A stretch of DNA of 64,000 nucleotides from Moniliella sp. 'wahieum' (GCA_003971905.1 RSEE01000024.1:186001-250000), one strand, 5' to 3'; counted from the first letter of the stretch, positions 6,925 to 61,776 are shown. Notes: generated by a model from the letters alone, not told the origin. Made by a program: numbers and translations.

Positions 6925-6961
6925 GTCCAACGTCCTACGTTGAACGTTGAACGTGTTGAAC
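6925..6961. repeat. Heptamer array GTCCAAC / GTTGAAC
   Basis: Consecutive units GTCCAAC, GTCCTAC, GTTGAAC, GTTGAAC, then GTGTTGAAC: four exact seven-base steps and one of nine. AACG recurs at each junction. Confidence 0.9.
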
Positions 6962-6982
6962 GCACTTCGCATGCACGTTGAA

Positions 6983-6999
6983 ATGTGAGATGTGAGATG
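6983..6999. repeat. Heptamer pair ATGTGAG
   Basis: ATGTGAG twice in direct succession, then ATG. Confidence 0.85.
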
Positions 7000-7050
7000 C
7001 TGGGCGGGCAGCCAACACCTCCCATCTCACACTGGGCTGCCAATGCGGAC

Positions 7051-7064
7051 GTCTAACGTCTAAC
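7051..7064. repeat. Heptamer pair GTCTAAC
   Basis: GTCTAAC repeated twice, followed by GCTCCC. Confidence 0.85.
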
Positions 7065-7105
7065 GCTCCCTGTGCGAAGGGCGGAGCGAGAAGATTCCGA
7101 GACGG

Positions 7106-7140
7106 CCCAACGTCCAACGCCCAACGTCCGTGGCCCAACG
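7106..7140. repeat. Heptamer array CCCAACG / TCCAACG
   Basis: Five seven-base steps in exact register: CCCAACG, TCCAACG, CCCAACG, TCCGTGG, CCCAACG. The fourth unit is diverged but keeps the spacing. Confidence 0.9.
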
Positions 7141-7316
7141 CACACGCTTGGTTGGCAGTTGCTCGTGGACGTGAATGAGTACAATGAGTACAGAGAGTCT
7201 CAGGACAGAGGACGTCAGTACTCAGTATGGGAGCGCACTCAGCCTGCGCGCTGAGGCTCAGCCCAGCACCTACCAGCTACGACCTCGTCTGGGTGGGCGG
7301 TGGCGCGGCAGGGCGC

Positions 7317-7383
7317 ATGTCGCATGTGACATGCATCAGGTGATCGATCGATAATCTATGACATGTGACATGTGACATGTGAC
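7317..7383. repeat. ATGTGAC heptamer arrays
   Basis: ATGTCGC, ATGTGAC, ATGCATC at 7317-7337, then three perfect ATGTGAC copies at 7363-7383 followed by ATG. The joined unit reads GACATGTGACATG, so each copy also presents the palindrome ACATGT and an E-box-like CATGTG. Confidence 0.9.
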
Positions 7384-7467
7384 ATGCATGGCATGTTGCC
7401 AACACTGGCGTACTGGCGTCGGGTGCTGACCCATGCCACGTGTCTGCGGCACAGGGCGTCGCAAGTC

Positions 7468-7488
7468 ACGCGCCACGCGCCACGGGTC
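7468..7488. repeat. Heptamer array ACGCGCC
   Basis: ACGCGCC, ACGCGCC, ACGGGTC in direct succession. Confidence 0.8.
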
Positions 7489-7939
7489 AGGGCTGCGACT
7501 GAGCGCTGGGCAAGGGGTGTCTGTGTGCGACTGCGGCGGAATGCAGAATTAGCGTCGCTCTTGCCGAGCCGAACAGCCTCGGGTGTGTTAAGCCTTAAGC
7601 CTCACGCGCAGCCAGGGGCAGCGCTCTGTGTCGCATTCGGGCGTCCCTGCAGCGCAGCCAACACCTCCCCGCACACGCGCAGCACCCCCAGCGCTGAAAA
7701 CAGCGCTGAAAACACTACTGAAAACATAGCCCACACACCCCTTCCACCCCCCAACACCCGCCCCGTGCGGCCAGTGCGTCTGCTGCTGCTGCCCTCTGTT
7801 GTACCCGCCCCAAAGCTTATTCTGTCTGGGTCCGCCTCCTTGCCTGGCTTGTTTCTTCCCACCGCACCACCGCACCCCCCCCACCACCACCCGCCACGCC
7901 TTCTGCCTCACCCGCCCCCTGCTGGCTGCGCGTCGACGA

Positions 7940-10900
7940 ATGGCGCTGGCACTCGCCTCGGACCACGTCGTGGCCAAGTACGACTACGCCCCCACCCAGT
8001 CCAACTGCATCCCCCTCGTCGCCGGCAGCCAGCTGCTGGTGTACAACCGCCACCCCAGTGGCTGGTGGGAGGGCAAAACGTCCACCGGCCTCCGCGGCTG
8101 GTTCCCCTCCAACTTTGTCTACTCGCCCCCCGCCTCGCCCCGCCTCAAACCCGACCTCTCCCCCACCCTCGGCGGCCAGCCCGATCTCAGCCCCGAGTCC
8201 GACACCTCCTTGCTCGACCAGGATGCGCAAGAATTCCAGGATGCCCTGCCCCACCCCTCCCTCGCCTTGCCCACCAGCCTTCACCACGCCATCTCCCGCC
8301 TCCAGTCCGCCGCCCAGGCCGGGCAGCGCAGCTCCTACGTTCCTTGCACTGCCTCGGTCGTCACGGTCACCCGCGACGCATTGGACGCCCTCGGCTGTTT
8401 ACGCCGCGACGACGCTCTGGTCCAGAACTACACTGAGATCTCCTATCGACGGAAACTGCTTTTGCGTGCGCTCAGCGATCTCGTTGCTCTCTCGGACCGT
8501 CTCAGTCTTGCTTCTTCCGACGGCCCCGACCCCGAGCAGGACCAGACAGCAGCCCAGCACATCCTCCCCGCCTCCCAGGCCCTCGCTACCGCGCTGCAGG
8601 ATCTCATGGAGGCCAGCATGGATCGTGCGTCGCCTGCGTCGCAGCCACGAGACTTGCCTGACCTGCACTCGCAGGCATCCGGCATATTTTCCGACATTTT
8701 CTCCCCGCGCGGACTTCCCGGTGTCGCCACGCTGGACGTGAGCTCTCATTCGGACGAGTGGCAGGACGCTCGTCTGGCGCTGCAGGCGGCCGTGGAGGAA
8801 TTCTCGGGTTTGATGACCCAGTCGCCCAACAGCCCTTTTGCCTCCCCCGACGACGCCCCGTCCCCGCCTGCGGATATCACCAAGGTGCTGGACGTTGCCC
8901 TCTGCGTCCATACCTCGGTCCGACAACTGCTCCATGTCACGGAGCAAGTCTTGATCTCCTCTTCCCGTTCGCTTACCCAACCTGGCATGATCGCTCTGTC
9001 CAACGCGCGCTCGGACTTGTACGGTGCCTCGTCCCAATTCTCTTCTCCCTTCGTGAGATGACGACCGTGGGGAAACACTCTGCTTCGCTCGAGGACCTAC
9101 CGAAATCGTATGCTTCCGATGGGTTGGCAGCTGCGTCGGCCATGGCCAAGGCCGCTGATCAAGTGGCCTTGTCATTTGCCATGCTCGATGAAGCTACTTC
9201 TTCCAGTGACGACCGTACCTCCTCCACACCGCAAATTGACGCTGTCAAGCCCCAAGCGAGCCTTGCCTCGCTCCCTGCGTCGCTTCCGACCAGCCCAATG
9301 GGACGATCGGACCAGCGCATGACCAATTCCCCCCAGGCCAAATCACGTGGCCGTCTGTCGTTGCTGACGCGCAAAGTAGCCAGTTTAAGCATGCTCCGTT
9401 CAACCCCTAGCCTCTCCTCCCTCACCAGCAGCCCCAACGTTTCGCTCCGTACCCCTCGTTCCCCCATCAGCGGCGGGCCAAGTTGGATCCCGTCCCGCAT
9501 CCCAAACGGTCTGTTGGCATGCCGTTACTTTCGCCCGACTCGGCGCCGCTCGGCCCATGGGAGCGCGAGCTGGATTCGGACGAGGTGGTGCGCAGTAGGC
9601 CCGGCGACATTTTAGGAGGCACATTGCGAGGCATGATAGCTACCTTGATTGCACCCGCTTCTTCTGCTTCAGTGGAAGAGACGACCAACGCGTTTGCCTT
9701 GACCATGCCTCTGTTTGCCCAGCCCGAGATGGTGGCGGGGCAGTTGCTGGAACGGTACCAGTCGCAGCCAGCGGGGTGCGTACGGGCGAATGTGCTCAAC
9801 TTTGTTCGTCTCTGGTTGTCGGACGAGCACTGGCGTGCGACGGATGCCGAGGCGCTCGCACCCCTTTCCCAGCTGGCCACCGAGGCGCACGCTACGGACC
9901 TAGCCGCCTTGGTGGAGCAGCGGGCCACGCCGCAAGAGGTAGGCATGCGTCTCTTCTCCGACGGGGGCATTGTCATTCGCCGTGTGGTGGGGGGGGAAGG
10001 AACGGGGATCGAAATGCTCTACACTCGTCCTTGGGTCCAAGCTACCGTTCCCCTGCCCCTCATCCGACCCAAGATGGGCCAATCTCTCCTGAGCGCCAAC
10101 GAACTCGCACGCCAACTTACCGTCCTCGCAAGCCGGCTCTTCCTCTCGCTCGAGCCCAGCGAGTACTTCTCCCCGCGCCGCCACGCCCGTCCCAGCGCAC
10201 TCAAATCTTCTCGCCCCGTCTACGGCGTGCATCAGGAACTGTGTCTCTCTTGCCCGCCCAACGAGTGGGACCGGCTGCCGCCACTAGCTGCGTTGGCTCT
10301 GCTGAGCAATCGCATTGTTGGCTGGGTCTCTCAGGCCATCTTGGCCCCAGACTCGTTGCGCGAAAGGAGAGCGGTGATTAAACACTTTATCAAATTGGCC
10401 GACGTACGTCCCCCCCCCCCCGTCCCCCCCCCTACTCCTCTCTGATCCAAGAGCTGACTAGTGACCCAACAACCTACCTTACCGGTTACCCTTTTCCCCC
10501 CGTCCCTCTTCTGGCCCCTTTGCCTATTATACCCTACAGAAATGCCTGGCGCTCAATAACTTTCATGTATTTTTTGCCGTGCAAGGCGGGCTGGCCTGTG
10601 CGTCGGTGCGCCGCCTGACGCTCACCTGGTCCTCGCTGCCAGGGAAATACACGCGACTAGCAACGCAACATGCCTACCTCGTCGATCCACAGCGGAACCA
10701 TGTTGCCTATCGCGCCCGGCTGGAACATGCACTGCAGCGAGGCGACCCCTGCGTACCCTTTGTCGGGTTGGTCTTGACTGACCTGACGTTCGCGTTGGAA
10801 GGTAATGCGCCGACACGCAAGGCGACTTTAACTTCGCTCCGCTCCCTCGACCCCGTTCCCGCTCCTACTCCTGCTCCCGCTCCTGCTCCCGCTCCCACTC

Positions 10901-11214
10901 CCGCTCCCGCTCCAGCTCCCGTTCCGCCGCCCCGGCAACCCGCCCCGGCCGAACAAACAAACGAAGAAGTGATCAATTGGGCCCGGTACGCTCGAGCGGC
11001 GAAAATTGTCATGCCGCTCCAAGGACGCGTGTACCCGCTCCAAGCAAGTGAAGAGGTCCAAGCTTACCTTGCCACCACGCTCCGGCAAGCACCCGAAAGC
11101 GGCACGGCCGACCAAGATGAACTCATGTACCGTCGTTCCTTGGTCCTTGAACCGCGCGTCGGCCCACCTAGCACCTCTTCGTCCGTTCACGCGTTGGGCT
11201 TGGGGTTGAGTTGA
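7940..11214 (+). CDS. CDC25: SH3-domain Ras guanine nucleotide exchange factor (Cdc25 family)
   Basis: Activates Ras by GDP release, feeding the cAMP/PKA pathway. The N-terminal SH3 domain (residues about 10-60) shows ALASDHVVAKYDY, GWWEGKT and GWFPSNFV. A long Ser-rich linker follows. The RasGEF_N domain contains RPGDILGGTLRGMIATL, and the catalytic domain shows SNRIVGWVSQAIL, AVIKHFIKLAD, CLALNNFHVFFAVQGGL, PGKYTRL and FVGLVLTDLTFALEGN. An intron at 10404-10539 (GTACGT donor) splits LAD from KCLALNN. The frame changes near 9050 (one base missing in a T run) and near 9465-9485. A Pro/Ala repeat (about 10850-10930) interrupts the catalytic domain just after LTDLTF..GN. About 1,040 residues, shorter than yeast Cdc25. 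Confidence 0.88.
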
Positions 11215-11276
11215 GTTGAGTCGAGCTGAGTTGAGTTGGTTGCGTTGACTTTGTTCCTGCCTGGGCAGGTCGAGGG

Positions 11277-11341
11277 TTCAACATTCATCGTTCACTGTGT
11301 TCAACGTCCAACAATCAAGCTTCAAGCTTCAAGCTTCAAAA
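11277..11341. repeat. Nine-unit heptamer array TTCAACG / TTCAAGC
   Basis: Units in order: TTCAACA, TTCATCG, TTCACTG, a two-base TG step, TTCAACG, TCCAACA, ATCAAGC, TTCAAGC, TTCAAGC, TTCAAAA. All but one step are exactly seven bases. The array lies about 60 bases past the RasGEF stop. Confidence 0.92.
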
Positions 11342-11956
11342 TCATCTTTCCCGAACGTCCCGGACTTGGTGGAGTTCATCGTTCAAAACAACTTCCGTCG
11401 CGAGTGCGACTTGGATGTTGACAGTGCCTATTTATCTTCTTGGGGTCCGTTTCTTGTCGGCCCATCAGCCGTTGGTTTTTTTCCCCTCCTCTTGTCTATT
11501 CCCTTCGTTTGGTTTGGTATCTTTCTTTCGTTCGTTTGGTCTTTCTTTCGTTCCTCTTTCCTTGTTTTCTGTCACTTTTGAGCGGTTGGAAAGAGCCACT
11601 TCTTGTACACCCATTCGTTCCCCCCGCTCTTTTCCCCCCTCTTAGGGCCGTCCTCCGCCTCCCCCCCCCCCTTCCTCCATCCCATCCCATCCCCCGCGCT
11701 AGAAGGACAGGCGCCTGCCCCACCCCCCACCCCCGCCCCGTTCCCCCCCCCATATGCACATCGCCTCCTAATGGATCCTTTTGAGGCCGCCTCTCATCTC
11801 TCTCCCCATTCTCTGATCCCTCATCGAATCCACTCCACGCTCCCTAGCCGTCCTGGCCCGCATGTGCCACCACACACACTCACACACACATACATTCATC
11901 GTTCAATCGGATTTTTACCATGGGCACACCGCAAGGCATCTTAATCTTGGTGCGCC

Positions 11957-11977
11957 TTCAAGCTTCAAGCTTCATCC
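11957..11977. repeat. Heptamer array TTCAAGC
   Basis: TTCAAGC, TTCAAGC, TTCATCC. Confidence 0.85.
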
Positions 11978-12218
11978 CATAGCGGGAGGGGTCTAGCGTT
12001 TACGTGCTCCATGGGAGCGAGCGAGACAGATATGAGGTGTTGACGAAAGTGAAGGCGGCCAGGGGAGGATCTGAACCTCACGTCTCAAGTCCCGAGTCAA
12101 TCTGAAGTCTGCCAAAGAGAGAGATCTCAGTCTGAGATCTCAGCTCCTGAGATCTGAAAGACCGGCTGGGCGAGCTCATCACAGTGATGAACCGATGCAG
12201 TTTGGGAGCGCCCACGGG

Positions 12219-12253
12219 ATGAATCATGAATCATCGATCATCGATCAAGCTTC
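12219..12253. repeat. Heptamer array of pairs: ATGAATC x2, ATCGATC x2
   Basis: ATGAATC, ATGAATC, ATCGATC, ATCGATC, AAGCTTC in unbroken seven-base register. Confidence 0.9.
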
Positions 12254-12555
12254 CAGTCGATACGAGCAAGATCTCCGAGGGGGGCCAGGAGGGGCGTGGG
12301 CACTGGCCGGGCAGAGCAGACCATGTGGATGGGAGGGGCGTCCCTGTTGGTCTGAGACGTGCGGCGGGTGGATCGCGGGGGCAGACAGCTGGCTGACCAG
12401 CAGCGGAGACTGGCGCCGAAGACCAGCGCAGAAGACCAGCGCAGAGACTGGCGCAGAACGCCGGCCGAATTCCAAACGCACGTGCAACTTTCAAATGCCC
12501 GCACACGCAGGCACTGCAGCGCACTGCCGCGGCCCAGGAACACCCGTGCTGTAGC

Positions 12556-12576
12556 TAGGCGCTAGGCGCTGGGCGT
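12556..12576. repeat. Heptamer array TAGGCGC
   Basis: TAGGCGC, TAGGCGC, TGGGCGT. Confidence 0.8.
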
Positions 12577-12860
12577 TCGGCCTGGCGCGGCGTGGCTGGT
12601 GTGGTGCGGCGGGCGGCGGCGCTCGCCATCGCGTGTGCTTTGCTCCGCGTCACCCGTCCTCACCGCCTCACCCGTCACCCGCGTCACCCCGCCGCTCCAG
12701 ACGCGGTGATATGATACGAGCAGGGTATGTGCAAGCCAGCGTATCTCTTGCGCAACCGCTCTGAAAAAAATGCATCTCTCTTCTCTGCTCACACCACCCT
12801 GCCACTCCGCCAGCCCCTCCTGCCCCCATCTCCTCCGCTCGGGAGTGCCACCATCTTACC

Positions 12861-14766: not shown

Positions 14767-15117
14767 CCTCTGTTTGTACGCGCTACCCTTACGATGATGA
14801 TCTGATTGATCAATCCTGGCATGTTACGTCCATGTGACATGTGACCCCTGCTCGTTGTAGCACCTAAAATGAAGGTCGAAAGAAGAGTAGTGTGGGCGCA
14901 CGGGTACAGGCGAGCGCGCAGGGGGAGTGGATTATAGCGTTGCTTGATTTAAGCTTGGTCCATAATGGCGGGTCTCGCGCTGCGCTCCAGTATAGGAAAG
15001 CTACCTGATTAGAGGAATTTTGGCCCCTTTTGGCCCCTCTGACGACCCTCTTAGTGGATTGTGAGCGGTTAGTACTAAGCTTAGCATTTAGCCGACAGCC
15101 ACCACACAGCCACAAAC
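14767..15117. other. Spacer with ATGTGAC heptamer pair
   Basis: No gene recognised. Two ATGTGAC copies in succession occupy 14832-14845. Confidence 0.55.
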
Positions 15118-17571: not shown

Positions 17572-18027
17572 CGAACGAAGATGAAAAAAAGTGAAGGACG
17601 CGTGGCAATGTGAATAAATGATGAAGACGATACTCCGTGGGGAGAGCACGTCCCCACACGCGCAGGACATATGCCACGCGAGGAAGGGAAGGGGATGCGG
17701 TAGAAAGTAAGAGTTTTCGCAGGTTTAAGGGGGGGATGTAGTCATGTAGATGGACAAGATGGTGCTTGAGCACTGTAGGGCAAGGCCCTCCAACAGCCGC
17801 AGCATCTTGCTGATAGGGACTTCCTTCGCCAGAAATCAACAAAACGCACAGGCGCGCCCCAGTATGGACCTAATATTCCCTCTTTTTTCATACACCACAC
17901 CCTTTCCGTCAGGTCGTTGCTGGCTGCCTGAAGCTCCTATTCGACATATATGTTGTGCTGACGTGCTTCTCGTTGGAGAGCAAGCAACTAAGCAAATCAG
18001 AGCAAAGCATGAAATTAGATTAGCAGA
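17572..18027. other. Spacer, no gene seen
   Basis: Nothing recognised beyond A/G-rich sequence at 17570-17720. Confidence 0.5.
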
Positions 18028-19392: not shown

Positions 19393-20102
19393 CTGCCGTA
19401 GAAGAAGCGGCGGTGATTATGTGGTGGTTAGAGCTGAGCCTCAAATCTGAGAGAAGTTTATTTTCAATCTTGGAGGGGGAGCCAATGTGATGTTCGTCCC
19501 TCGTGTGACATGTGATCCCTTCGTGCTCTTAATTCTGCCATGGCTCAACGCACACAGCCGCTCCCACTGCCCGTGCTGACCAGACTGCCCAACACGCTCG
19601 GCCTGTGTTGTCTTGCTTCCTTCAGAAGTGCGATTGAACCATAGAGCTTGAAGCTGGAGGAAGCTTGAGCTGGCTTCGGACACCCAGAGTAGGAAGTGGA
19701 GGTCCCAAGTTAGGGTTTTTTTTTTCATGGTTGCACGCGCCTTTGTCCGATGTGCGCGAGAAGAATTAATACTGAGGCTGCCAACAATATCCTTTCTGAT
19801 GGGCATCGAAGGCTGGAAGCGGGCATCGTGGCAGATCGAGCTGCCTCGGGGCTCAGTGAGGACTGAGTTACTATGGCGCCTTCTCCGTGCTGCTCTCCCA
19901 AGCCATATTGAAGCTTGGCGTGAAGTCTCAGCCTCACTAGTAGCCTCACTTGCCAATGCGCTGATTTCAATCATGCATTGGCCACGTGGAGCGCGCTCCC
20001 CGACATTAGAATGGCCCAGATGAGAAGGCTGGCGTTTGGGCTCTTCGCACCCACCTACCCAGCAAGGGAATCACTGGCGGCCTTGTGTGGTTGCCCCCGC
20101 CA
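19393..20102. other. Spacer upstream of MCD4
   Basis: No gene assigned. A 177-codon minus-strand ORF (19441-19974) resembles nothing known and has no coding-like composition. TGTGACATGTGATC near 19505 is another seven-base duplication of the ATGTGAC type. An AAGCTTGAAGC-like run lies at about 19648-19670. Confidence 0.5.
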
Positions 20103-24500: not shown

Positions 24501-24923
24501 TGGGAAGGCGGGTGAGTGGGGAGTGGTGAGGGCTGGTAGAGATGTGCGAGTGCTGGCCCAGGCTAACCGCCAGTGCTTCTGACTAGCTTTCTCCGGCGAC
24601 GCATCATGCATCACGTGATGTGCAGCCGAGGGGCTGCGATATTCATAGGCAGCTACGTGAGGTCACATGAGCATGACCGATGACGGCCATCGGAGAATGC
24701 GGCTGCGTGAAATGTTCAACGCGCGCTGCGCATCCCCGCCGACGCTCGGCTGCGTGCTGGGTGGCGCCACGCACACTGCCCCGCGCTGGCTTCCCGCGCA
24801 GATCGCCACAGGTGGCGCGGGCGCAGGGGGCAGTGTGCGGGGGGGTGGGCACGTGCTAGACCAGAGACGTGGAGTGGCCTCCGACTCGCCGTCGGGGCCC
24901 GCTTCCTCCCCTCCACATCCACC
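24501..24923. promoter_or_regulatory. Bidirectional promoter between DTD1 and UAP1
   Basis: The 423-base gap separates two divergent starts. It contains the perfect 12-base palindrome CATCACGTGATG at 24609-24620, an E-box of the Cbf1/USF/TFE class. A GGTCACATGA site follows at 24661-24670, and GTTCAACGCG at about 24715. Function is inferred from sequence only. Confidence 0.6.
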
Positions 24924-33254: not shown

Positions 33255-33933
33255 ACTGGCGCGGAACCTGCAGAGGAGAAAGGGGCAACAAAGGAACCAA
33301 GCTGCTTCGGTGCAGAAGGGCAGCGGAAGGACGGGAATATGGCCGGCAAGAGGCCAAGGGACGAAGGCGGAAACTACCTCCCTTGGCCCCGCAAGACCGA
33401 CCGATCCGTATGCTGAGAAGTGCGGGCGAGCCCGTGGGGAGTCGCCTTGGTGGGCGTGGCACGCGCATCATCGTACGCAAACAGAGGTTGCCTACCAGCA
33501 AGGGTACGAGGAGTGCAGAGGTAGAAGGGGAGGAACTATTTGGCGGGAAGGGTTGGCAAAAAAAAGGGGGAGGGGGCGGAGGGGCTGGCGGTGGAGCAAG
33601 TGATGACCGAGTGTGCTGAGGCGCTGAGGAGCGGAGTACGAGTGTCCATGCGAGGTCCGTCCGTAGCATTGTCGCAGCGTCCAGCGATGGGTGACCGGTG
33701 ACGCTCCCCAGGAACGTTCAACGCTCAGATTGAAATCTGAACGCTGGGCAGCTCAGCGCATTTGCGTGCTGAACATTTGAGTGGTACATAACCACGGGCA
33801 AACTGCGGCGAATCCCAGTCACAACGAGTGTCGCCCCGCTTCAAGCTGCAAGCGTCAAGTCCGCTGCGGCAGAAGAACGGAGTTAGTTGCAGGGCGGGGC
33901 TTGGTGCCTGCCCTTTCTCTCCCCCCACCACCC
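33255..33933. other. Divergent spacer between FMN1 and threonine synthase
   Basis: No gene recognised. A heptamer array TTCAAGC, TGCAAGC, GTCAAGT occupies 33840-33860. The inverted pair TCAGATTGAAATCTGA lies near 33725-33740. Confidence 0.5.
33840..33860. repeat. Heptamer array TTCAAGC / TGCAAGC / GTCAAGT
   Basis: Three consecutive seven-base units about 75 bases upstream of the threonine synthase start. Confidence 0.8.
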
Positions 33934-36110: not shown

Positions 36111-37757
36111 ATGGCCACCCCGTCCACCCAGCAGCCTGCCCGCCCCGCCCGCCGGCTCTGTGCGCAGTGTGCGCGAGATCATCAACGGCCGCCAGCACTC
36201 CGTCATCTGCATCAGCGACGACGACGGGCCCTCCCCTGCCCCCTCCGAGGCTGGCCGCCCGCCCGCCCGCCCCCGCTCCGACCGCCACCCGCGCGAGCAT
36301 CCACGCCCGCACCGCCCGAGCACCTCCGCCCCAGCCCCGCCCTGGCCAACGCCGAACCCGCGCCGTCGAGCAAGCGCAAACGCGTCTCCGACCCCGACCG
36401 CCACCACAAGGCCCCGCGCACCACCCCCCCGACGCCGGCTCCACCAGCCACCGCGCCGACTTGGCCTCTGCCGCCGCCTCCCACCCCATCCCCCCCGTGC
36501 CTACCACCACCACATGGAACGCTTCCGCCGCCGGGGGGGCAGAGCGGCGCGCTCGCGTGCCGCCCTCATCTGTATGTCACTCCCCAACTCCCCCACCTCC
36601 AACCCCCTAGTCACTAGTCATCACCGTCTGGCACAGCATACTGACGTTTCCATTCCCAGGCCGCATCGGACGCGACCAAGACCGATAAGCCGATCGATGA
36701 TCCCGAAGGCCACTTTATTGTTCGGCCTGGTGACAACCTTACTCCGCGCTTCAAGATCCTATCGCAACTGGGCCAAGGCACATTCGGTAAGGTGGTTGAA
36801 TGCTTTGACCGTACCCAGCGCTCGCGGGTGGCCATCAAGGTGATTCGCGCCGTACAAAAGTACCGTGATGCGGCCAGATTGAAATCCGGGTGCTCAAGAC
36901 GCTGCGAGAGAACGATCCGCAGAACGAAAACCGGTGCATTCACCTTGTGCTGACGTTCAACTACAAGAACCACGTTTGCATCGTATCCGAGCTGCTGTCC
37001 AAGTCTGTATTTGACTTTTTGAAGGAGAATGAGTTCCATCCGTTCCCCTCAACCCACATTTGGAGCTTTGCCAAGCAGCTGCTCAAGAGCGTTGCCTTTC
37101 TTCATTCTCTCCAGCTCATCCACACCGACCTCAAGCCAGAGAACATCTTGTTGGAAGATAGCCAATATGTGACCAAACCCTGCTCCTCTCGCAACCCCAA
37201 CTCCAAACGGTGGAAGATCTTGACCAACACCGCGCTCCGCCTCATTGACTTTGGCTCGGCCACCTTTAACGACGAGTACCACTCGACGGTCGTGTCCACC
37301 CGACACTACCGTGCCCCCGAGATTATGCTGGGACTGGGCTGGTCGTTCCCCTGCGACGCGTGGAGCATCGGATGCATTCTCATCGAGTTCCACACGGGCG
37401 ACGCGCTCTTCCAAACCCCACAACGATCTCGAGCACCTGGCCATGATGGAAGCGTGTCTCGGCCCTATGCCGGAAGCGTTCCGGCAACACGCCGAGCAGC
37501 ACAAGCCTGAATTTTTCCGCAATGGCCGGCTGCACTACCCCAACAGCCAAACCTCGCGCAACTCGCAACGCTATGTGAGGGGGATGAAGAAGATCGCCGA
37601 CGTGCTCACCTACCCTTCCGCCTACTCGAAACACAACCTCCGCTTCCTCCACCTTCTTCGCAAGTTACTGGAGTACGATCCGGCCCAGCGCATCTCGGTC
37701 CATGAGGCGCTCAAGCACCCTTACTTTGATCTTAGTGCCAGCGAGTTCCCGCCATGA
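36111..37757 (+). CDS. LAMMER dual-specificity kinase (CLK family)
   Basis: Kinase of the Clk/Kns1/Lkh1 group that phosphorylates SR-type splicing factors and growth regulators. The N-terminal region is disordered and basic, in several frames (SVREIINGRQHSVICISDDD; SSKRKRVSDPDRHHKAPR). An intron (36572-36659, GTATGT donor, CTGAC branch) precedes AASDATKTDKPIDDPEGHF. Kinase motifs: LGQGTFGKVVECFD, AIKVIRAVQKYRDAA, IHTDLKPENILLED, LRLIDFGSATFNDEYHS, VSTRHYRAPEIMLGLGW and NDLEHLAMMEACLGPMPEAF. The last is the family's EHLAMME signature with Ala-Cys in place of the usual Arg. The frame changes near 36150, 36878 and 37415. About 510 residues. Confidence 0.93.
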
Positions 37758-39624: not shown

Positions 39625-39966
39625 TCTGTTGGTCTGGCTCAGCGGGGTGACCAACAGGCCACCGGGCCAATGGTCCCACAGAGGATGGAGGAGGCTGCTG
39701 GGAGGGCAGCGGCAGACGGATGGGATGCACCTCGGCACAGGAGGACGAAATGCAGACACTCGGCACAGATATACTCACGAGTCACTGGGCAGTCCGTGCG
39801 TGCTGCTTGAAGCTTGAGGTGGTTGTTTCGAGAGCCCCACACGGATGATTACGTACTCGGCCTGCGGTGCTTTCACACCCCCCCTGCTCGGTCACCGGCC
39901 ATCCATCCTCCTTAGCACATAGCATTGGCCATCGCACTCCCTGTTCCCCCCGCCCTCGCCACCACC
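39625..39966. other. Spacer with GCTTGAA heptamer pair
   Basis: GCTTGAA, GCTTGAG at 39805-39818. No gene recognised. Confidence 0.5.
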
Positions 39967-45940: not shown

Positions 45941-45980
45941 GTTACGTTACGTTGCGTTGCGTTGTGTTGTGTTACGTTAC
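45941..45980. repeat. Paired pentamers (GTTAC)2(GTTGC)2(GTTGT)2(GTTAC)2
   Basis: Eight consecutive pentamers arranged as four identical pairs, each pair one base different from the next. The last copy overlaps the stop codon of the converging NDUFA2 gene. Confidence 0.95.
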
Positions 45981-48729: not shown

Positions 48730-48757
48730 GACGACGGGCGACGCGTGACGCGTGACG
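48730..48757. repeat. Heptamer array GACGACG / GGCGACG / CGTGACG x2
   Basis: Four exact seven-base steps sharing the tail GACG. Confidence 0.85.
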
Positions 48758-49006: not shown

Positions 49007-49034
49007 GTGCAGCGTGCAGCGTGCAACGTTCAAA
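49007..49034. repeat. Heptamer array GTGCAGC x2, GTGCAAC, GTTCAAA
   Basis: Four exact seven-base steps. The last two units drift toward the GTTCAAC class seen elsewhere, linking two heptamer classes in one array. Confidence 0.88.
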
Positions 49035-49273
49035 TGGTCACGTGCGACCGTTGCCCCGCCTCGCCACGCGCGGTCGGGCGGGGCAGCGGGGCGGAACGCG
49101 GGTTCCGCCTGGGGCTCGTCTCGCGGCGCCGCGCCGGCCGCCGCTCACATGCATCACAGCCCGCCGAAGCGGCCGTCGGCGCTGGCGCGGGCGCGGGCGT
49201 CGCGCGCGGCATGGCTCTGGTCTCTGGTCTCTGGTCTCTTGCGCATTGCCCCCCCCGCCTCCCCTCCCCCGCC

Positions 49274-49890: not shown

Positions 49891-51446
49891 CTTACTCTGT
49901 GTATGTATCGAACAAGTACCATCGGCGAGCAGATAGTGCACCACTCAATCCACACTCTAGTCCATCAGCATGCTCACGTTCTTGCACGGGTACTTGGTTT
50001 GGCGGAACAGTATGCGTCAGGGTGCACTGGAATGCCTCAAGGTCCTTTTGCGCCTCTCTCTCCCTTGAGCGTTCAGTGCATGGAACATGGAACTGTTTGG
50101 AACGAAAAGATGCTTTTTTTTCTCGTCCAGACCGCTCATGGTGCTTGGATGCCAATGCTGGTGGCACCACTGGACCAGGGTTCATCGCTACTCAGGTGAA
50201 GCTTGAAGCTTGAAGGGGTGTCACTGGCATGCCGATCCTTATGCGCTTCTGGAGGAAATGCACAGGCTCCACACGATCGGCACGAGCATGGTCTGATAGA
50301 AAGGCCGTGTCTTTCGGCATGTTAGAAAGCACATTTTTCAGTCAGACTTCTCGCTCACCACAAAGGGAAGAAAAGGCGGAGGGGGGTGTATCCGTCACTG
50401 TTTCAACCGGAGTTCAACGGAGGTACGGCTGGAACTGTACCTGCATCTCAACTGCCATCCTTCCAGCGTCTAACCCACATCGATGGTCAGGACATAGAGC
50501 CAGTGCGTCCCCCCCTTGCCACCTGCCTTTTAGGAGAAAATAGTGGTACACCCATGAGGCCAAAGGAAGCATTCATTTGGTCTGTCTAGATTGAGGCGAA
50601 TTCCCGGAGTGCACGTTGGTTAGCACCCTCGGGGGTACTTGCCCTTTCCCTTGGGTGTTGAGTTGAACGTCACCCTCTACCGGTTAGCCGGGTACAACCC
50701 AGTTACCCTTGGACCAGTCCGCATCCTCAGAGGGGGTTGGGACCGGAGCAGTAAGGCTACGGGGGATACATGGCCCAACATCCTTCCCACCTCAGGTTGA
50801 CCCGCACGTCCCATGAGATAGCCCTAATGCCATTGTCTCGCCCACTTTGCTTCCGCGCTGCTACATCTGCTCCAACGGCGCGGAGACAACGCTGGCATAC
50901 GTTTGTCGGCGAGGACGGCCGGATGGCAGAGTCTGGAGAGATGGATTGGTGGTGGGGAGCGCAGGGAGAGACCAGGAGGTCGATCAGGATGCAGGATTGA
51001 TGCAGATGGTCGATGGTCGATGATCCATAATCAATGCTCGACCGACGGATGTGAAATCGAAGACGATGGGTTGCAATTTCAATCTGGGTCTGCCGATGGC
51101 TATGGCAGATGCTAGATGACGCGTGACGGGTGGTCGGTGGTCCTAATCGGTGACATTGCGCTTCTCTGGTTTCGGCAACAAATACTTTCTGGGCTGACTT
51201 GGAGCACTTGCACCGAAGAAGCCGCACACTGGCTGGGTGCCGGCGCGGCATTAGTAAGGGACGCCCGGGCGCACGGGCAGTGTCGCCGGTTGGCTCCGGG
51301 GGGGGCCGCTAGGCTAGGGCGTGCTAGCCAGCCTGCCGGGAGCCCAGGCTGCCGACGCAAGGCAGGCCCCGGCGCGGGTGCCAGTGCGAGGCCTCCAGCG
51401 TCCAACCGTCTTCCCTTCTCCACCACTCGACCTGCCTGTCCCGACC
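49891..51446. other. 1.5 kb spacer with heptamer repeats
   Basis: No gene recognised. GCTTGAA twice at 50201-50214 preceded by GTGAA, and GTCGATG twice near 51009-51022 within a run of GAT-containing heptamers. ORFs are short and unconvincing. Confidence 0.5.
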
Positions 51447-51797
51447 ATGTCTGAAGAAAAGCCGCAGATTGTGCTCCAGACCGCGCCCTTTGACGCGCGC
51501 TTCCCCAACCAGAACCAGACCAAGCGCTGCTTCCAGGCCTACACCGACTACTTCAAGTGCGTCGCTGCCAAGGGCGAGGAGTTCACCCCCTGCCAGCAAT
51601 TCTCCCGCGTCTACAACTCCATCTGCCCCGTCGACTGGGTACGTTCCTTCCCCTCTCCTGCCGTCTCTGGGGCTGTGTTTTGTATCCAGGCAGCCGGACC
51701 AACTCACTAACCTCCCCATCCCCTTCCCGTCAACCAGGTTGAAAAGTGGGACGAGCAGCGCGAGGAGGGCAACTTTGCCGGCAACCTTACTCCTTAA
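51447..51797 (+). CDS. COX12: Cytochrome c oxidase subunit VIb
   Basis: Intermembrane-space subunit of complex IV. Complete and in frame: MSEEKPQIVLQTAPFDARFP, NQNQTKRCFQAYTDYFKC (CX9C), TPCQQFSRVYNSICPVDW (CX10C). An intron (51639-51737, GTACGT donor) precedes VEKWDEQREEGNFAGNLTP and the stop at 51795-51797. The four Cys of the twin motif, which form disulphides through the Mia40 pathway, are all present. 84 residues, the family length. Confidence 0.97.
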
Positions 51798-52829
51798 GTG
51801 TCCCGGCCGCTCTGGCGTTGCGCCCCCCCTTCTCACCCCATGTCCCACCGCCCAACCAATTCATTGTGCACACCCCATCTCTGCTGCTGTCTCCTGTCTT
51901 CTGTCTACTATTTGCGCCACGGATCGGTAGGGTACATGTGGCTGGCGTGTGGACCGGGCGGGACTTGGCACACGCTTCCACCTGCTTCGTAGTCCCTCCA
52001 CCTTCCTCCCTCTCTTCCCCCCTTCTGTATCCGATCCGCCCGCCAGTTTGTCAGCTTGTTGCGCTAGAAATGCACCAGCCACGTGCTACCTGCACCGCAG
52101 GCGGTAGTTTTCTCGCGCCCATCTCTGCGCACGCGGGAGGATTCTACCGACCCAAACGGGGCGTTCGGAGCGCTCCCGCGCCCAGCCCGATGGCTCGTAA
52201 GGGAGGTTGGATGCGTGAGAATGGCGCTGAGGCATAGGTGACAGACAGCCGGTGTGGGGGGAAGCGTATGGAAAAAAAGTAGTCGTGCAGCCGGGGCAGG
52301 TCTCCTATATGGGAGGCGAAAGTACGGACGCTTGAGCTCGAGTCAAACGAGGCAGGGGAGAGTTTGGGCAAAAGGAAGGTCGAAGAGAGGATAGAGAAAA
52401 TAGATTGGTGGGCAAATGTCGGGGTCAATGTCAGTGTTCAGTGTCAGATTTCAGAGCAGCGCTCCGTCCGACCCGCGAGGCCATCGGGCGATGAACGTTG
52501 AACGTTGAGCAGGGCCTGAGTCAGGAATATAATTTTTGGCCGTAGGCCGTTCAGGCTCCGAGCAGGACAAAGAATGGGGCGGGAGCCAAGCCAGCCTGCC
52601 AGCCGAGCCGAGCGCAGCCGCCCAGCGCCCGCCCGCCCCTGGCGCTCATTGAGCGCTCAGGCTGAGCCGTTATCGACGTTATCTCTCACCCGCTCCTTTG
52701 GGATCAGCTTAATTCCTCCCCGCCCCCCCCACACGTCAGACGGACCAGTCGCAACGCAACAGAAGGTGCGGTGGTGCTGTCCTGTCCTGTGCTTCTGCTC
52801 CGCCACCTTGCTCCAGTTCCGTCACCATA
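51798..52829. other. Spacer with GTTGAAC heptamers
   Basis: No gene recognised. GATGAAC, GTTGAAC, GTTGAGC at 52490-52510, preceded by a TCAGTGT-type period-7 run near 52425-52455. Confidence 0.5.
52490..52510. repeat. Heptamer array GATGAAC / GTTGAAC / GTTGAGC
   Basis: Three exact seven-base steps, the inverse complement of the TTCAACG class. Confidence 0.85.
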
Positions 52830-54472
<1,643 letters not shown>

Positions 54473-55174
54473 ATTAAAGTAGTACGCATAGAATAGGATA
54501 TGCTGGTGTGTGGTTCCTCTTTCCCCCCTGTCCCAGTCTTCTCACCCGGGCCATTGCTCGACCACATGAGTACGATGGACAACATGCCTTTTTTCCCTCT
54601 CGTCTTTAGACTGCACATACGCCCAAACCTGAATCGATTGGTATGGGAAAGAGTAAGAACCGTGACAGTAACGTCAAGGGCCCAAAGTGTATAGATCATA
54701 GATTAGTCTTCGTATCATCCCCGTCGCGCGTTCACTCGGAATGCCAGCCTTACAACCGTTTCCGTAGGCGGGGGCGCTGGCCCTAGCTAACCACATGGCC
54801 ATCGCGCACTTCGTTACGAGAAGTAAAGCCCACGGGAAAGGACGCGTTCGTCCACTCACGCTCTTTTCATATGGGACTCACTCCAAGAGGGTAGCCGTTG
54901 GGTCGCTGCGCTCACAACAGGAGTACCCACCTCTCTGCGGGGTTCACCGACGTCATCAAAGCCACTTGTTGGCCTTCTTGAGCACGCTCCCACCTCAGCC
55001 AGACTGCGTGCTGCTCTCCGGTGCTCTCGTCTGAGGGACACTAGCTACGCTAGGTTAACGTTAACCCCTTTGCGTCTCCCTCTCCCGCGCTTGGCTCAGC
55101 ATGGCTTGTAGGGTACATCACATTGGCATCACAGTAAGAGCGGCGCACAGAGCGCTCGTATCACCCAGCCCGTA
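54473..55174. other. Spacer between ARG5,6 and HSF genes
   Basis: No gene recognised and no reductase-like sequence. It contains a perfect 14-base palindrome GGTTAACGTTAACC at 55053-55066. Confidence 0.6.
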
Positions 55175-57250
55175 TCACGTGCTGGGCGACTGGGGCCTGG
55201 GGGTGGCGCTGGTACCGCTCGCGCCCGTCGTGGCTGGCAACGGCGTGGGCGGGTCAGTCAGAGAAGGGTCGTCAGTGAGGAACTGAGCGAACAAGTCTTC
55301 CTCTTGAGGCTCCGGCCACTGCAGCGCCGCAATGCCACGTGTCCATGCGTCCTGATGGTCTTCCACCACTTGCGCCGCATGAGGATCGCCCGGACGCAAC
55401 TCGTCGGCCAGCGCAGAGAGAGAACGTGGCAGTCGCGCTGGCGTCGGCGTCGTTGTCGTTGCAGGTGCAGGTGCAGGTGTTGGTGCAGATGTTGGTTCTG
55501 TGATAGGTGCTGTGGTAGGTGCTATGGTAGGTGCGGTGGTAGGTGCAGGGGCAGGCATCTGGGCTGGCGCTTGGGCTGAGGTTGGGTGTGTCCAAGTGTC
55601 CCTGGTGTCTCTTGCACTGGTGGAGCGCGGGTGGGCAGCATTGAGCAACTGGGCAAGCCAGTGAGCCCCCTGCTCCGTGCCGAGGACCTGTAATACCTCG
55701 GCCCGTTGCCGCGGGCTAAGCCGAGGGGGAGACGGCTGCCGGTGCGCTTGTGGTTGTGATTGCGCTTGTGGTTGTGGTTGTGGCTGAGGCGGCGGCGGTA
55801 CAGACTCCATCTCCTCGGCCCCTGGCGAGCCTAGCCGCTCAAATCTCCCTGCATCCTCGTACCCCGTCAAATTGGCATTCACCGCGGCCTTCGAATCCCA
55901 ATCCCAATCTCGGTTCCCGTTCCCGTTCCCATTCCCGTTCCCGTTCCGATTCCTCGACCCCTTCACGGAGGTAGATGGATCTGGGTGCCAACCTTCGGGG
56001 CCCTGGAGCAGCGCCCGGCCCGAGACGGGCCGCTCACGGGAAAGACGGGCAAGGTCGTCCGGTAAGCCTGCGTGAGCACTGGGGTCAGCACCTTCGCGCA
56101 ACGCCGGGACCGAACCAAATACGCCGCCGAGGAAACGCAGGATCTTTTCAAGCGCATCGTGTTGCTTGCGTTCGCGCCGGTGGGCATCTTGTCGGTCAGC
56201 CCAGAGGCTTTTGAGCCGCACGCAGATGCGCAACTTCCCGCACCAAATCGTTTTGCTGCGTCTGGAGCGTCTGCAGGACTGAGGCCAGGTTCACGCCCCA
56301 TGCATGTGCGGCAGAAGAAGGGGGCGCACCAGTTGACCCACTTGGCTCGGAGGGCGGGGCCGTGGTGGACGCTGCCGAGGTCGAGGTCGAGGTCGAGGTC
56401 GAGGTTGAGGTTGAGGCAGATGCGGAAGGGAGAAAATTGGCTGCCCACAATGCAGCAGCAGGGTTGTTCGGGAGACCGTTGGCGGTCCGCAGCGCTTCAA
56501 CCAGTCGCGGCGACAGACCAGAGGGGGGTAAGTAGGGTGTCAAGGCAGTCGAGCTCGCTGGCGCCAAAGTTGAAGGTACGGGTGAGTCAGCTGGAACGAG
56601 ACCAGCAGGCGGGATGGCAACAGGCGGCAAAGATAGCGAGGAGAACGGGGATGGAAAAGGAAGTGAGAGGCGCGAAGACCGCGATGGCGCTGGAGACGCT
56701 GGACGGGGGTGCTTGTGCCCGGCAAGTTGGGTTTGAGGCGTGGACTTTTTCCGCACGACCAGGTGCATGAGTTGAGGCTGGTCCCGCTGAAAGAAAGGGT
56801 GGAGGAACTCATTGAGGTCGCCCTGCATCAAAGTACCGGCCGACGGGTCTTGCTTCTTCTCATCCGGCGGCGAGCAGCTGCCAGGCACGTTCACTACGGG
56901 TTCTAGAGCTCCCGTCTGGAGATGGGGCACCTTGTGGAACCCGTACATGTTGAGTTGGCGCACAAAGCTGCTGAAGCGTTTGTGCAGAAAGAAGCGGGGA
57001 AGAAGCTCCTCCGAAAAACGCAGTGGGTCGCAGATAAAGATGGACTTGCCCGATGGGCTCCAGCGAATCAGCTCGTCAGTTGACGGGTCATCCACCATAC
57101 TTGGGGCCACAGTCAGCCTTGATCCGAAGTGATGGGAAACAGAGCAGATAGGGAGCGGCGGGAAAGGAGTGCGTACCTGCGCAGCTTGTTGAGGAAGGCC
57201 GGGTAGATCTTACCCGGCCCCTGCGATGGCTGTGGTGTTGCGACCTCCAT
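55175..57250 (-). CDS. HSF1: Heat shock transcription factor
   Basis: Trimeric activator of heat-shock genes. Exon 1 is MEVATPQPSQGPGKIYPAFL NKLR. An intron (57100-57176, GTACGC donor, CTGAC branch) interrupts the DNA-binding domain, which continues SMVDDPSTDELIRWSPSGKS, LRFSEELLPRFFLHKRFSSF and VRQLNMYGFHKVPHLQTG, the winged-helix recognition part. A Ser/Pro linker leads to a coiled coil (VLQTLQTQQNDLVREVAHLR, then, after a frame change near 56215, VRLKSLWADRQDAHRRERKQ HDALEKILRFL), the HR-A/B trimerisation region. The C-terminal part has Asn-Gly, Pro-Gln and Pro-Ala repeats and an acidic tail (EEDLFAQFLTDDPSL), a probable activation domain. About 690 residues. An Hsf1 or Sfl1-type paralogue cannot be separated by eye. 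Confidence 0.9.
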
Positions 57251-57895
57251 GGTGGCTGCTGCTCAACCCTCCATCTGCCGGGCCGAGCTAGATATGCGGA
57301 GGGCGGGACACGATTGCCCGATACCCGGGTTTTGCACCGATTGTACTCAATCGCTGCGCCAACAGACTTGAACGTTCAACGTTGTTCAACGTAGTTCAGC
57401 CTCCTGGCTCGGCCAACTCGCAAAGAATGAAGACGGCGGGAAGAAGAGACATGCAACCTCCAATACTCACCAGACGCCAAGCAATCTCCATCCACCCTTC
57501 CACGACCACTGGCTCCTTGTCTTCCGAAGTCAGGCGTAAAAAAACAAGCACCGTGCTGGAGAATGGCGCCGCTTTCCCGTCCGGAGGAGGGTAACGTGCA
57601 CAGGTTGCAGCCTGCGCTCACCGTCTGCCGTTTATTGATTGGGAGAAAGCGCAGTTGCGACGGAGGTGATGCAAACACAAACCAAAAAACTACCGACCGA
57701 AAAACTACTGCACCTCCCAATATGTCATAACCTCCGGTCCCGGTGGTGGATGAGAGCAGGCATTCAGTAGATTGTTCAAAAACAGGGGGGTCCAAACAAT
57801 GAAGTCGAGGAGGGGTATGATACACAGAGGGGAGAATACGCACGTGCAGTGAGAGCAAAGGAGGGGGGGGGTGGGGCACAAAAGTGAAGGTTCGA
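57251..57895. other. Spacer with GTTCAAC repeats
   Basis: CTTGAAC, GTTCAAC, then GTTCAAC and GTTCAGC at ten-base steps, 57367-57400, some 120 bases upstream of HSF. No gene recognised. Confidence 0.5.
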
Positions 57896-59533
57896 CTAGA
57901 GTGGGTAGCGGAAGAAGCGTCGCTTTTCCCAGTCTGTCTGGTTGCTAAGATCTTCAACGGCATGGTGTTCGGGGTGGTCACCAAACTCGCGGTCGCGTTG
58001 ACGATTGAGATAAATGTGGGTGAGGAAAAAGATGCCGTACGTGATCCAGCTGATGGCCAGGAGAGAAACCATGGCAATCTTGGCTGGTGTATACTCGGGA
58101 GCGTCTTTTGCGCGGTAGATTTGTGCGCCAATAATGTTGCCGGGAGTAGCCTACTTGGAAGATGGCATTGGCCATAATCCGCTTCGTCTCGCCCGAAAAG
58201 CTGCGGGCAAGGGTGCCGTAAAGCACCATCGACGCTGGTGCAAACCAAGGCACAAACATGTATAGTGTCACCTTGGCTACATCGCTCGCGTGCGAAGCCA
58301 GGACCCCCGATCCAATAATTGAGATCAAGAGCGTGAACGACCCCATCACCGACGCCGGAAAATACATGGCACCCACCACGATCAAAATACAGGCAGCGAC
58401 TTCAGATCCACCCTGCGCCAAACCAAGAAGCGAAGTTTGTTCCGCATTGAAGCCAAGGGAGGAGATGACGGTGGTGCCAAAGTTCGTAAGTGCGCCATTG
58501 GCCACATCCATACAGATGATGCACAAGAATAACGTCCAGACGCGTGGGTCGATTAGCGCTTCGCGCACTTGGTACCACTCAAACTTGTGCGAGACAATGC
58601 CCGTCTTGTTTTTGGCAACCAATTCCACGGCAATCAACTTCTCCCGCTCGTTGAGCACCATCAGCTTGCCCGGCTCCGACGGCATAAAGACCAGCGTGAT
58701 AACGGAGAAGAGGGTGGTAACCAGGCCTAGAATGATAAACATCTCGCGCCACCGGGGAATAGCGGTGTTGTGCTGCCGCTGCAGACCATAAGAGATGAGA
58801 CCTCCCAGGATCTGAGCCCAACCGTTCTGAGTGACGAGGCGAACGGGTCAGTCAATGGCCTGCTCCATACATTGATTGACTGATGGTTGCGGGTGGGGAT
58901 AGGGATAGGGAAACGTACAAAGGAAAACCACAGAGCGGTGCGGGTGTTGATTTGCTCGGTACTCCAGAAGCGACCAGTTAGAAGAATAAACCCAGGCGTA
59001 ATGGCGGACTCAAAGATGCCGAGAAAGACACGGCAGGTCATGAGACTGGCCCAGTTAAAGGTTGCGGCGTGGAGGGTGAGTGTGACCCCCCAAAAGAACA
59101 CACATACCGCCAGGTAGCGCCCGAGTTGGACCTTGTGGAAGATAATAGAGTGCACAGGAAGAGCAGCCAAGTAGGCAAAGTAGAATGTACTTCCCAACCA
59201 CGAGTACTGCGACGAGTCAAAGTGAAGCGTGTCCTGGAACCCCAACAGATGGGCGTAGTTGATGGTTGTTTTGTCCACATACGTGAGGCAGTACACGGTA
59301 CACATCATAGGCAAAAGGTACCAGTCGGTTTGCGAAGCACCTTCTTGCACTCTTCTGGCGTTGCGTCCAATCGCTCCGTGTCCAGGACACGTGCCATGGT
59401 GTCAACATCGGCATTTTTCAAGTCTTCCACTTCCACAATCGGCTTGAATGCGGTCTCGGGGGAGCATAGCCAGCGTCCACGTGCTTGGACGAGGCGGACA
59501 CAACGGACTTGCTGTCCTTTTCAGTTACGGACA
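57896..59533 (-). CDS. MFS transporter of the Dal5 / anion:cation symporter family
   Basis: Plasma-membrane uptake of a small organic acid, possibly allantoate, nicotinate or a related vitamin. From ATG at 59533 (MSVTEKDSKSVVSASSKHVD), after a frame change: DWYLLPMMCTVYCLTYVDKT, TINYAHLLGFQDTLHFDSSQ YSWLGSTFYFAYLAALP, KVQLGRYLAVCVFFWGVTLT and CRVFLGIFESAITPGFILL. An intron (58827-58918, GTACGT donor) lies between LWFSF and NGWAQILGGLISYGLQ. Then come REMFIILGLVTTLFSVITLV FMP, NGALTNFGTTVISSLGFNA, GETKRIMANAIFQVGYS, and in another frame NIIGAQIYRAKDAPEYTPAK with a tail QTDWEKRRFFRYPL to the stop at 57896-57898. The YV-DK-T-NYA motif in helix 1 is typical of the family. Frame changes near 59450, 59345 and 58150. 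About 510 residues. Confidence 0.88.
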
Positions 59534-60437
59534 TGGCGGCGAGGGTTGGGTTGGTGTAACAGAGGCAAGGCGAGGCACAGGGGGGAACACAGGGGATGAA
59601 ATGCATGGATCCTCCGCACTCTCGGTGTGCTTTTTATAGGCATGGCTGCCTGGCTGGGACGGCAGGACAGGTTGCCGGCATTTCACATCAGGTACGATGG
59701 GTTGTGAGCGCGCTGGACACCGTGCTGGAGGCAGCGCAAGCTACCCTGGCAGCCGGACGGCACGATGCCGTGCAAAGGAATTGGTTTTCCACACCACATG
59801 CAGCAGGCTGGCCGTTGTGTCTGAAGAAATCGGTGTGGATGACCGGTCGATGATCGCGTCGCGTGGGGCGGACGGCTAGTGGCTAGCGAGCGGGGATGAT
59901 GTCGATGCGATGCAGATGATGTCGATGATGATAACTTGCACCCAACCAGGCCACCCCACCGACTGCTCCCGGGGCGCCACTCGGACTGTACCGACAGCGC
60001 TGCTTCCCCGCCCTTGGCGCCGCGTCCGCTGCTCCGAGGGCGGGCGTCGCGTGATGCAGCAGGGCGTGCAACCGAGTGGGGCACTGGCCTGGTGCGGGCA
60101 AGGGCAATCAAGCTAATCAGTTCGCTGCGGGCGCTTCGGACAAATGAGATAGAACAGACACTGCCCCAGTGCGCCCTGCTCGGGGCTACACGGCGGCACA
60201 CGGCCAAATAGGCTGGCGCGCTGCGGGGGCTCTCCTGCCGCCCAGTGCCCCACCGAGGCTGATAGATCGATAGCGGCTGCCCGGCACTGTGCTCCTGCCG
60301 CGCGCTCGGGTCTGGCTGCTATCTGGGGCGGGATTTTTCGTGGCAGGAGGGAATGGTAACGAGTAGCTAGCGACCAGCGGCGCGTGGCGAACCAACACTG
60401 CCCCTGGGGGCATTGGACCCGACAGCTGCCAAGCTTG

Positions 60438-60458
60438 TTCAAGCTTCAAGTTCCAAGG
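60438..60458. repeat. Heptamer array TTCAAGC / TTCAAGT / TCCAAGG
   Basis: Three exact seven-base steps preceded by CCAAGCTTG. Confidence 0.85.
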
Positions 60459-61734
60459 CGCTCGTCCTCCGGCCTCGTCCATGTCCTCATCCACCAGTCA
60501 TCCTCTTATCTGGACGCTTCGCTCTCGATAGGCGGCCGCACGCCGGTCCGCCTGCCGAGTTCTTCATGGCCTACGTTTGGCAGCTGCCTCCCACGTCAAG
60601 ATGATCAATGATCTCGATCAATGGCCTCAGGCCTCATTAACGTTTAACCTCATTGGTGACCACGTCACACACCCACAATAACATATCACACTTCTTCTTT
60701 GCTCTTCGTTCGTCGCCCATACCCCACATGCAGCCATTGAAACGCGTTCACAACGTCACTAATAAAACGGCGGAGGAGTCCAGCCGAGAAGCCGCGGCTG
60801 CACCCCAGGAGAGAGGCCAGACTTCAATAAGAAGGCCAAAAAGCCTATTAATGTCATGGCTGTGAGCGCGCAGAGCGCTGATGACTATCTCTTCATCTAC
60901 GTTCAAATCGTCATCCTCGACGGTCGCCACAACGGGCGAAATGCCGCACTCATATTCCTGGCATTTGGAGGAGAGGACTCAGATTGAATCAGAGGACTCG
61001 GGTCGAATCAAGAATGTTCGTATTCAAAAGTGTATACCAACATGCATTTCTCAAGTCAGAACATATTCGCCATCCTCGTCTTTTGCCTGTACTGGGTTGA
61101 TCAAATTGGCAAGGAGAGTAGGGGGAGACGCTAATGGACCGTGGGGAAAAGCCACAAACCATTGCTAGCAGACAGGGACTAGTATAGGGAAACAAACGCA
61201 TTAGAGGAAGGACAGGGAACAGCGGAAAACAGGGGGGACGGTTGCCGCAATGGCAACCTACTTAGAAAGGCAAGGTAAACGGGCACGGGTCGGCACGGGG
61301 CGGCTATTGTCGCAAAGGGAAATACAAACAGTGTTGGGTGGCCAACACGTGGGGACAACCAATTCACTGGGACAAGAGGTGACTATTGTCGCGCGGATTC
61401 GTAGAACTGATAATCGCGCGGATGGGTTAGGATACAAGGTCCTTGAGCCACTGCGCGACCGCGACTTATTGGGATCTATATTCCTGATCTCCTCCCAACC
61501 TGGCCCCTCTCCGGTGCCTGGGTTACGGTGGGGATTGAGCTCGAGAGGGAGGAAAACCGTTCGTACCGCCCTTGGGCTGATGGAGATGTAGCGCCACACT
61601 GGTATGGTTGGCTCTACCATGTGCAATGCAATACATCATCACTGCCTGCTCTCTGGTCTTTTACATCCTCACTATCTTGGCTGCAGTGCCATCCGTCTAT
61701 AGGTCCTTCTTAGCGCATATATTAATGCACGATG

Positions 61735-61776
61735 GATAATCGATAATCGCTGATCGCTGATCGATGATCGATGATC
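61735..61776. repeat. Six-unit heptamer array of three identical pairs
   Basis: GATAATC twice, GCTGATC twice, GATGATC twice, in unbroken seven-base register over 42 bases. Each pair differs from the next by one to two bases within the first four positions; GATC or AATC ends every unit. Confidence 0.95.

Follow-up and report, generated by a model that had tools for sequence, protein, structure and literature searches.

The stretch analysed here, hereafter the window, comprises 64,000 nucleotides of one strand from Moniliella sp. 'wahieum' (GCA_003971905.1, RSEE01000024.1:186001-250000). It has the character of a fungal nuclear contig, with a G+C content of 60%, and its non-coding DNA carries many short tandem arrays with a period of seven bases, which are the subject of this work. 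Split genes were found for a Cdc25-type Ras exchange factor with an SH3 domain, PIG-N, a UDP-GlcNAc pyrophosphorylase (aligning over nearly its full length to the fungal structure 4bma, yet clearly diverged), a RINT1/Tip20-like protein, an Arg5,6-like acetylglutamate kinase/synthase and a heat-shock factor. Scans of the 64 kb for transfer RNAs and against Rfam gave zero matches, and no relatives of the window were found among viral contigs with an Arg5,6-like protein. Coding DNA was masked with a home-made hidden Markov model (HMM), trained on the window genes with Pfam hits, which leaves 28.6 kb as non-coding; all fungal counts given below refer to this one window and this one mask.

The seven-base period in non-coding DNA

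Exact runs of matches at a fixed lag were compared with order-3 Markov sequences. In non-coding DNA, lag 7 gave 34 runs of at least seven matches where about 2 were expected, and 20 runs of at least nine matches where 0.22 were expected, with 12 and 4 of these longer runs at the neighbouring lags 6 and 8; in coding DNA, 4 lag-7 runs of at least seven matches were seen against 2.3 expected. A count of repeated five-base words, which is independent of run length, gave 250 at lag 7 instead of 24 in non-coding DNA (10.3 times the expectation), compared with 5.0 times at lag 12, 4.6 at lag 6, 3.7 at lag 5 and 3.5 at lag 8, and with 1.1 times at lag 7 in coding DNA. When non-coding DNA was defined without the HMM, as DNA lacking an open reading frame of at least 120 codons, lag 7 still ranked first (11 runs; 1 at lags 6 and 8). 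Period 7 is a sharp peak above a generally repetitive spacer background and, as in heptanucleotide repeats, it stands above 6 and 8 in spacers and is depleted in coding sequence.

A first-pass annotation of the window had listed 20 places between genes where direct repeats step by seven bases, none of them in a recognised exon. Both the period and its confinement hold within the window, where the excess at seven is neither equalled at six or eight nor shared by exons, and all 20 places fall in HMM-non-coding DNA. The list itself is largely sound: 18 places have an exact lag-7 run of at least six within about 25 bases and 33842 has a run of 5, but 11277 is weak, with a run of only 4 (TTCAACATTCA), the strong array beginning 38 bases further at 11315. 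Seven is not the only period in excess in the spacers, as lags 5, 6 and 12 are raised there too. The sole strong period-7 array in an HMM-coding segment is (CTCTGGT)3.6 at 49215-49239, where a mis-call is possible.

The TSA and palindromic tetramer rule

Much of the lag-7 excess follows a composite rule, in which TGA (or TCA, that is, TGA on the other strand; together TSA) recurs each seven bases with a palindromic tetramer (N4) between. TGA at lag 7 was seen 30 times in spacers against 4.7 expected, the strongest of all trimer-lag signals, and TCA 28 times against 6.1; the exons had 2 and 3, respectively, against about 4.5 (TGA, as a stop codon, lowers in-frame exon pairs; the expectation rests on exon frequencies, and the count covers both strands). 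The gap is strict, TGA-Ng-TGA being found 58 times at g = 4, compared with 11-26 times for gaps of other lengths. N4 was palindromic in 34 of the 58 TSA-N4-TSA spacer pairs, over a background of 5.8%, while 60 simulations of the order-3 null gave a mean of 0.8 palindromic pairs and a maximum of 5. By locus the proportion was 25/41, with P = 4e-21 against the background and P = 3e-10 against the rate of 16.8% for palindromic tetramers beside any TGA, the loci being treated as independent in these and the following P values. The units do vary among loci, as the first-pass annotation had said, with 11 of the 16 possible palindromic tetramers present (AGCT, CTAG, CATG, ACGT, TCGA, TGCA, CCGG, CGCG, GTAC, GATC, and GGCC). 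They are not arbitrary, however, and its view that the period is conserved and not a motif has to give way to the composite rule.

The rule was derived from exact arrays and holds in inexact pairs and at unlisted loci. Among pairs other than exact seven-base duplications, 13/31 were palindromic (P = 6e-9), and 13/26 of the loci outside the first-pass list had a palindromic N4. A six-base palindrome, nearly always A-NNNN-T followed by G or C, lies inside 15 of the 35 exact period-7 non-coding arrays; none was found in arrays of period 5, 6, 8, 9 or 10. Outside arrays, lone TSA-palindrome heptads are barely in excess, as would be expected of a feature that arises by duplication.

The longest perfect array is (TGACATG)4 (7359-7386, +), and CATG also accompanies TGA in (CATGTGA)2.1 (14831-14845, +) and in TGTGACATGTGA (TGA-CATG-TGA; 19504-19515, +). 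Arrays with AGCT are TGA-AGCT-TGA, a single interval (6498-6507, +), (TCAAGCT)3.6 (11315-11339, -) and (CTTCAAG)2.7 (11956-11974, -), both TCA+AGCT, GCTTGAAGCTTGA (TGA-AGCT-TGA; 39805-39817, +), (TGAAGCT)2.7 (50197-50215, +), and TTCAAGCTTCAAG (TCA-AGCT-TCA; 60438-60450, -). TSA is combined with ACGT in (ACGTTGA)2.6 (6937-6954, +), (TGAACGT)2.4 (52492-52508, +) and AACGTTCAACGTT (ACGT-TCA-ACGT; 57371-57383, -), with CGCG in (GACGCGT)2.6 (48740-48757, +) and TGACGCGTGACG (TGA-CGCG-TGA; 51117-51128, +), with CCGG in GGTGACCGGTGAC (TGA-CCGG-TGA; 33690-33702, +) and CGGTCACCGGTCA (TCA-CCGG-TCA; 63958-63970, -), and with TGCA in two TCA-TGCA-TCA intervals (24601-24613 and 61784-61795, both -). The remaining palindromes are seen in TCA-GTAC-TCA (7215-7227, -), TGA-GATC-TGA (12148-12157, +), (GGCCTCA)2 (TCA+GGCC; 60623-60636, -) and (CTAGTCA)2 (TCA+CTAG; 36607-36620, -), the last in a non-coding segment within a predicted gene. 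At 12219-12251 (-) TCA recurs in phase, followed in turn by the differing tetramers TGAA, TCGA, TCGA and AGCT, and a composite array at 61735-61776 (+) contains TCGATAA, TGATCGC and two copies of TGATCGA.

Other arrays keep the rule in part or share the period alone. TGACTAG TGAAAAG TGA (6716-6732, +) is degenerate, and (TGAGATG)3 (6979-6999, +) is a TGA heptad with a non-palindromic tetramer. Period-7 arrays in which a palindrome is joined to a triplet other than TSA are (ACGTCTA)2.4 (7049-7065, +; CTA), (CCAACGT)3.3 (7107-7129, +; CCA) and (CGCATGT)2 (7314-7327, +; CATG with TCG), and non-TSA arrays are (CACGCGC)2.6 (7467-7484, +), (GCTAGGC)2.4 (12554-12570, +) and (GTGCAGC)2.7 (49007-49025, +); CAAGCTGCAAGC (33842-33853, +) has a weak period 7. 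We also observed a dense quasi-palindromic patch at 12121-12157 (GAGATCTCAGTCTGAGATCTCAGCTCCTGAGATCTGA), and the odd-palindromic heptads AGTGACT, GTTGAAC and GTTCAAC, whose copies also stand 9-11 bases apart, separated by a palindromic or partial insert (6728-6746, 6946-6962, and 57374-57392).

Self-pairing and the possible origin of the arrays

Units of the period-7 arrays pair with themselves, as in hairpin-forming repeats, judging by both palindromes and folding energy. Palindromic tetramers exceeded those of letter-permuted units at lag 7 (24/29 against 14.5 ± 2.6, and 40/69 against 30.1 ± 3.3), and no clear excess was found at other lags. The mean folding energy of period-7 units was -9.7 against -5.8 after permutation; there was no such gain at periods 5, 8 and 9 and a small one at period 6, period 7 being the only one with clear hairpin stability. 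General hairpins, with any inverted arms around TGA, were rejected as a description of the arrays, as they showed no clear enrichment beyond palindromic tetramers.

Since the unit pairs with itself without a fixed sequence, it points to pairing of the strand rather than to reading by a protein. The explanation we favour, giving it an even chance, is that these are heptanucleotide repeats born by slippage in non-coding DNA and promoted or filtered by self-pairing of the strand. Slippage-type duplication would yield short tandem heptanucleotides, and the units that arise or survive would often be self-complementary, made of one G or C and a palindromic hexamer A-NNNN-T; equivalently, two complementary two-base stems flank a TGA or TCA triplet (2+3+2 = 7). 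A three-base loop is the smallest common fold-back of DNA; with two paired bases on each side it makes seven, and on this ground we favour slippage duplications whose loop can take the 2+3+2 form. The slipped loop, folded as the smallest stem-triloop, may be stabilised or may act as a fold-back primer for a specialised polymerase, a step that would raise the chance of the duplication being fixed. The polymerases and repair of the fungus would help or tolerate the folded loop, and the arrays would later decay through point mutation. Stems so short can matter, given that two terminal base pairs are enough of a primer for human Pol theta to extend a stem-loop (PMC11292364). We propose that exons are nearly free of arrays because a seven-base insertion shifts the frame, and selection would act against arrays there. 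A more specific version, in which a lineage-specific and sequence-specific mutational machinery makes or fixes seven-base blocks through a two-base stem over a TGA/TCA triloop, we regard as unlikely; if it is true, what marks the spacers is not a sequence motif but a structure, namely self-complementarity in which the sequence is free to vary.

Several points weigh against the favoured explanation. Inverted arms around TGA/TCA that are not palindromic show no clear enrichment (0 and 4 against 1.6 and 1.9 expected), and fold-back priming alone is therefore insufficient. The closing base pairs are not interchangeable as they would be in hairpin repeats, TGA/TCA centring about half of the palindromic arrays, and palindromes closed by G-C are rare here though more stable. 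The weakest point is that hairpin stability alone fails to predict the TSA centre. In addition, inverted insertions in Drosophila favour a loop of six bases and not three (PMC11292364), and a genome-wide and in-vitro study found hairpin-forming repeats with units of 1-6 bases to be the least abundant and less variable in length (PMC7441554).

The first-pass annotation had offered two processes, one that duplicates blocks of seven bases and one in which proteins are arrayed at that spacing; the former fits better. Selection in promoters for arrays of sites in which TGA/TCA is bound every seven bases by a regulator or chromatin protein would account for the constant TSA, the strict spacing and the many arrays in long spacers upstream of genes (e.g., 6498-7484, between divergent genes). 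Within the units TSA is constant, as a motif read by a protein would be, and the other four bases are variable and palindromic. These four are self-complementary in 11 different sequences, however, and a protein that reads bases cannot require palindromicity, so that binding alone leaves the self-complementarity unexplained. Neither do the arrays keep a consistent distance to genes in the window, lying between 5 bases and more than 2 kb from gene ends, with 3' sides and two within-gene segments included. We consider binding sites improbable as the cause. Excision footprints of transposons at preferred sites, with a seven-base target duplication or a three-base TSA duplication plus two bases from each inverted end, are less probable still. 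TSA-XX-X'X'-TSA is indeed the remnant expected of the latter, and excision marks have also been considered for TAACTGA repeats (PMC4679880). Nevertheless, most isolated palindromic cases run past TGA (runs of 5-6), so the duplication must be longer than three bases, and a single element would not yield 11 different palindromes. Adjacent different palindromes were dropped as proof of repeated insertion, as the 3 cases seen equal the chance number (about 3 by our estimate).

Plain neutral slippage, with self-pairing irrelevant and the palindromes due to base composition and word bias of the spacers, would agree with the many non-palindromic lag-7 units and with the general abundance of palindromic tetramers beside TGA (16.8% against 5.8%). 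We find it very unlikely, given that Markov sequences simulated with equal word content hold at most 5 palindromic pairs against the 34 observed, that the palindrome excess is restricted to lag 7, and that in bacterial control loci 24/294 TSA pairs were palindromic, with fewer pairs than expected and no excess outside the AGCT arrays by which these loci were selected. Shared descent, by which a few ancestral heptad arrays dispersed and drifted and both rule and period were inherited, would explain the repeated use of certain units (six loci have AGCT+TGA, and three each have CATG and CTAG). Yet at least two coordinated changes separate any two of the 11 palindromes, and no common flanking sequence surrounds the seeds, which makes it the least credible of the origins considered.

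Comparison with known repeats

In many prokaryotes, heptanucleotides are described as outnumbering every other class of long simple repeat, and polymerase slippage, with a contact of seven bases, has been suggested as their source (Mrazek 2007 as described in PMC4679880; PMC4692102). As portrayed there, they resemble the fungal arrays in the over-representation of period 7, a mostly intergenic location, short arrays and several units; unlike the fungal ones, the units given (GGGAATC, GGGGAYT, TAACTGA, and GTGATTA) are not self-complementary, and TAACTGA was reported without particular RNA structure (PMC4679880, PMC4692102). The fungal unit list does not fit the prokaryotic G-quadruplex type with its G-rich GGGNNNN unit. 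Tandem heptanucleotides of Calothrix (cited in PMC4692102) also have seven-base units, but they are cyanobacterial and are likened to ours by period alone. A literature search of incomplete coverage on the unit sequences and on fungal heptanucleotides returned nothing on point and no reported fungal heptanucleotide dominance. Smut fungi may have spacer repeats of seven bases that contain TGA.

A 24-base array (TGAAGCTTGAAGCTTGAAGCTTGA), with a unit identical to the fungal AGCTTGA, occurs at no fewer than 120 places in GTDB genomes; its hosts among the matches listed are mostly Pseudomonas, Stutzerimonas, Halopseudomonas and Zobellella. These AGCTTGA and AAGCTNN arrays share with the fungal ones the unit and the dominance of lag 7 in the surrounding spacers; they differ in that AAGC/AGCT is constant while the remaining bases vary, and elsewhere TSA-palindrome pairs are not enriched. 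Loci L001-L080 often lie near inverted AAGCTNN arrays, with the related units GCTTGCA, GCTTCTG and GCTTTTC. Eleven IMG/VR contigs of 34-41% G+C (L122-L132) have an AGCTTGA array, and in another contig from a viral collection (L121, ~9469-9489) an inverted end closes the heptads, CTGTCAC(ATGTCAC)nCGTGACAG, adjoining a G-run. Trinucleotide CNG repeats also have a unit that pairs with itself, each repeat leaving one mismatch, and can form hairpins; they have a period of 3, long arrays and one unit family, whereas the fungal arrays have a period of 7, 2-4 copies and many units.

On the favoured explanation, the fungal arrays are bacterial-type heptanucleotide repeats in an unusual variant. Since, among repeats with units of up to six bases, those that form hairpins are the least abundant in surveyed eukaryotes (PMC7441554), the self-complementary fungal heptads are unexpected and run counter to that rarity. 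The cause of the seven-base dominance among long simple repeats has been a long-standing question since their discovery in bacteria, and a eukaryote that links the seven-base period to a 2+3+2 fold-back geometry would provide a testable answer to it.

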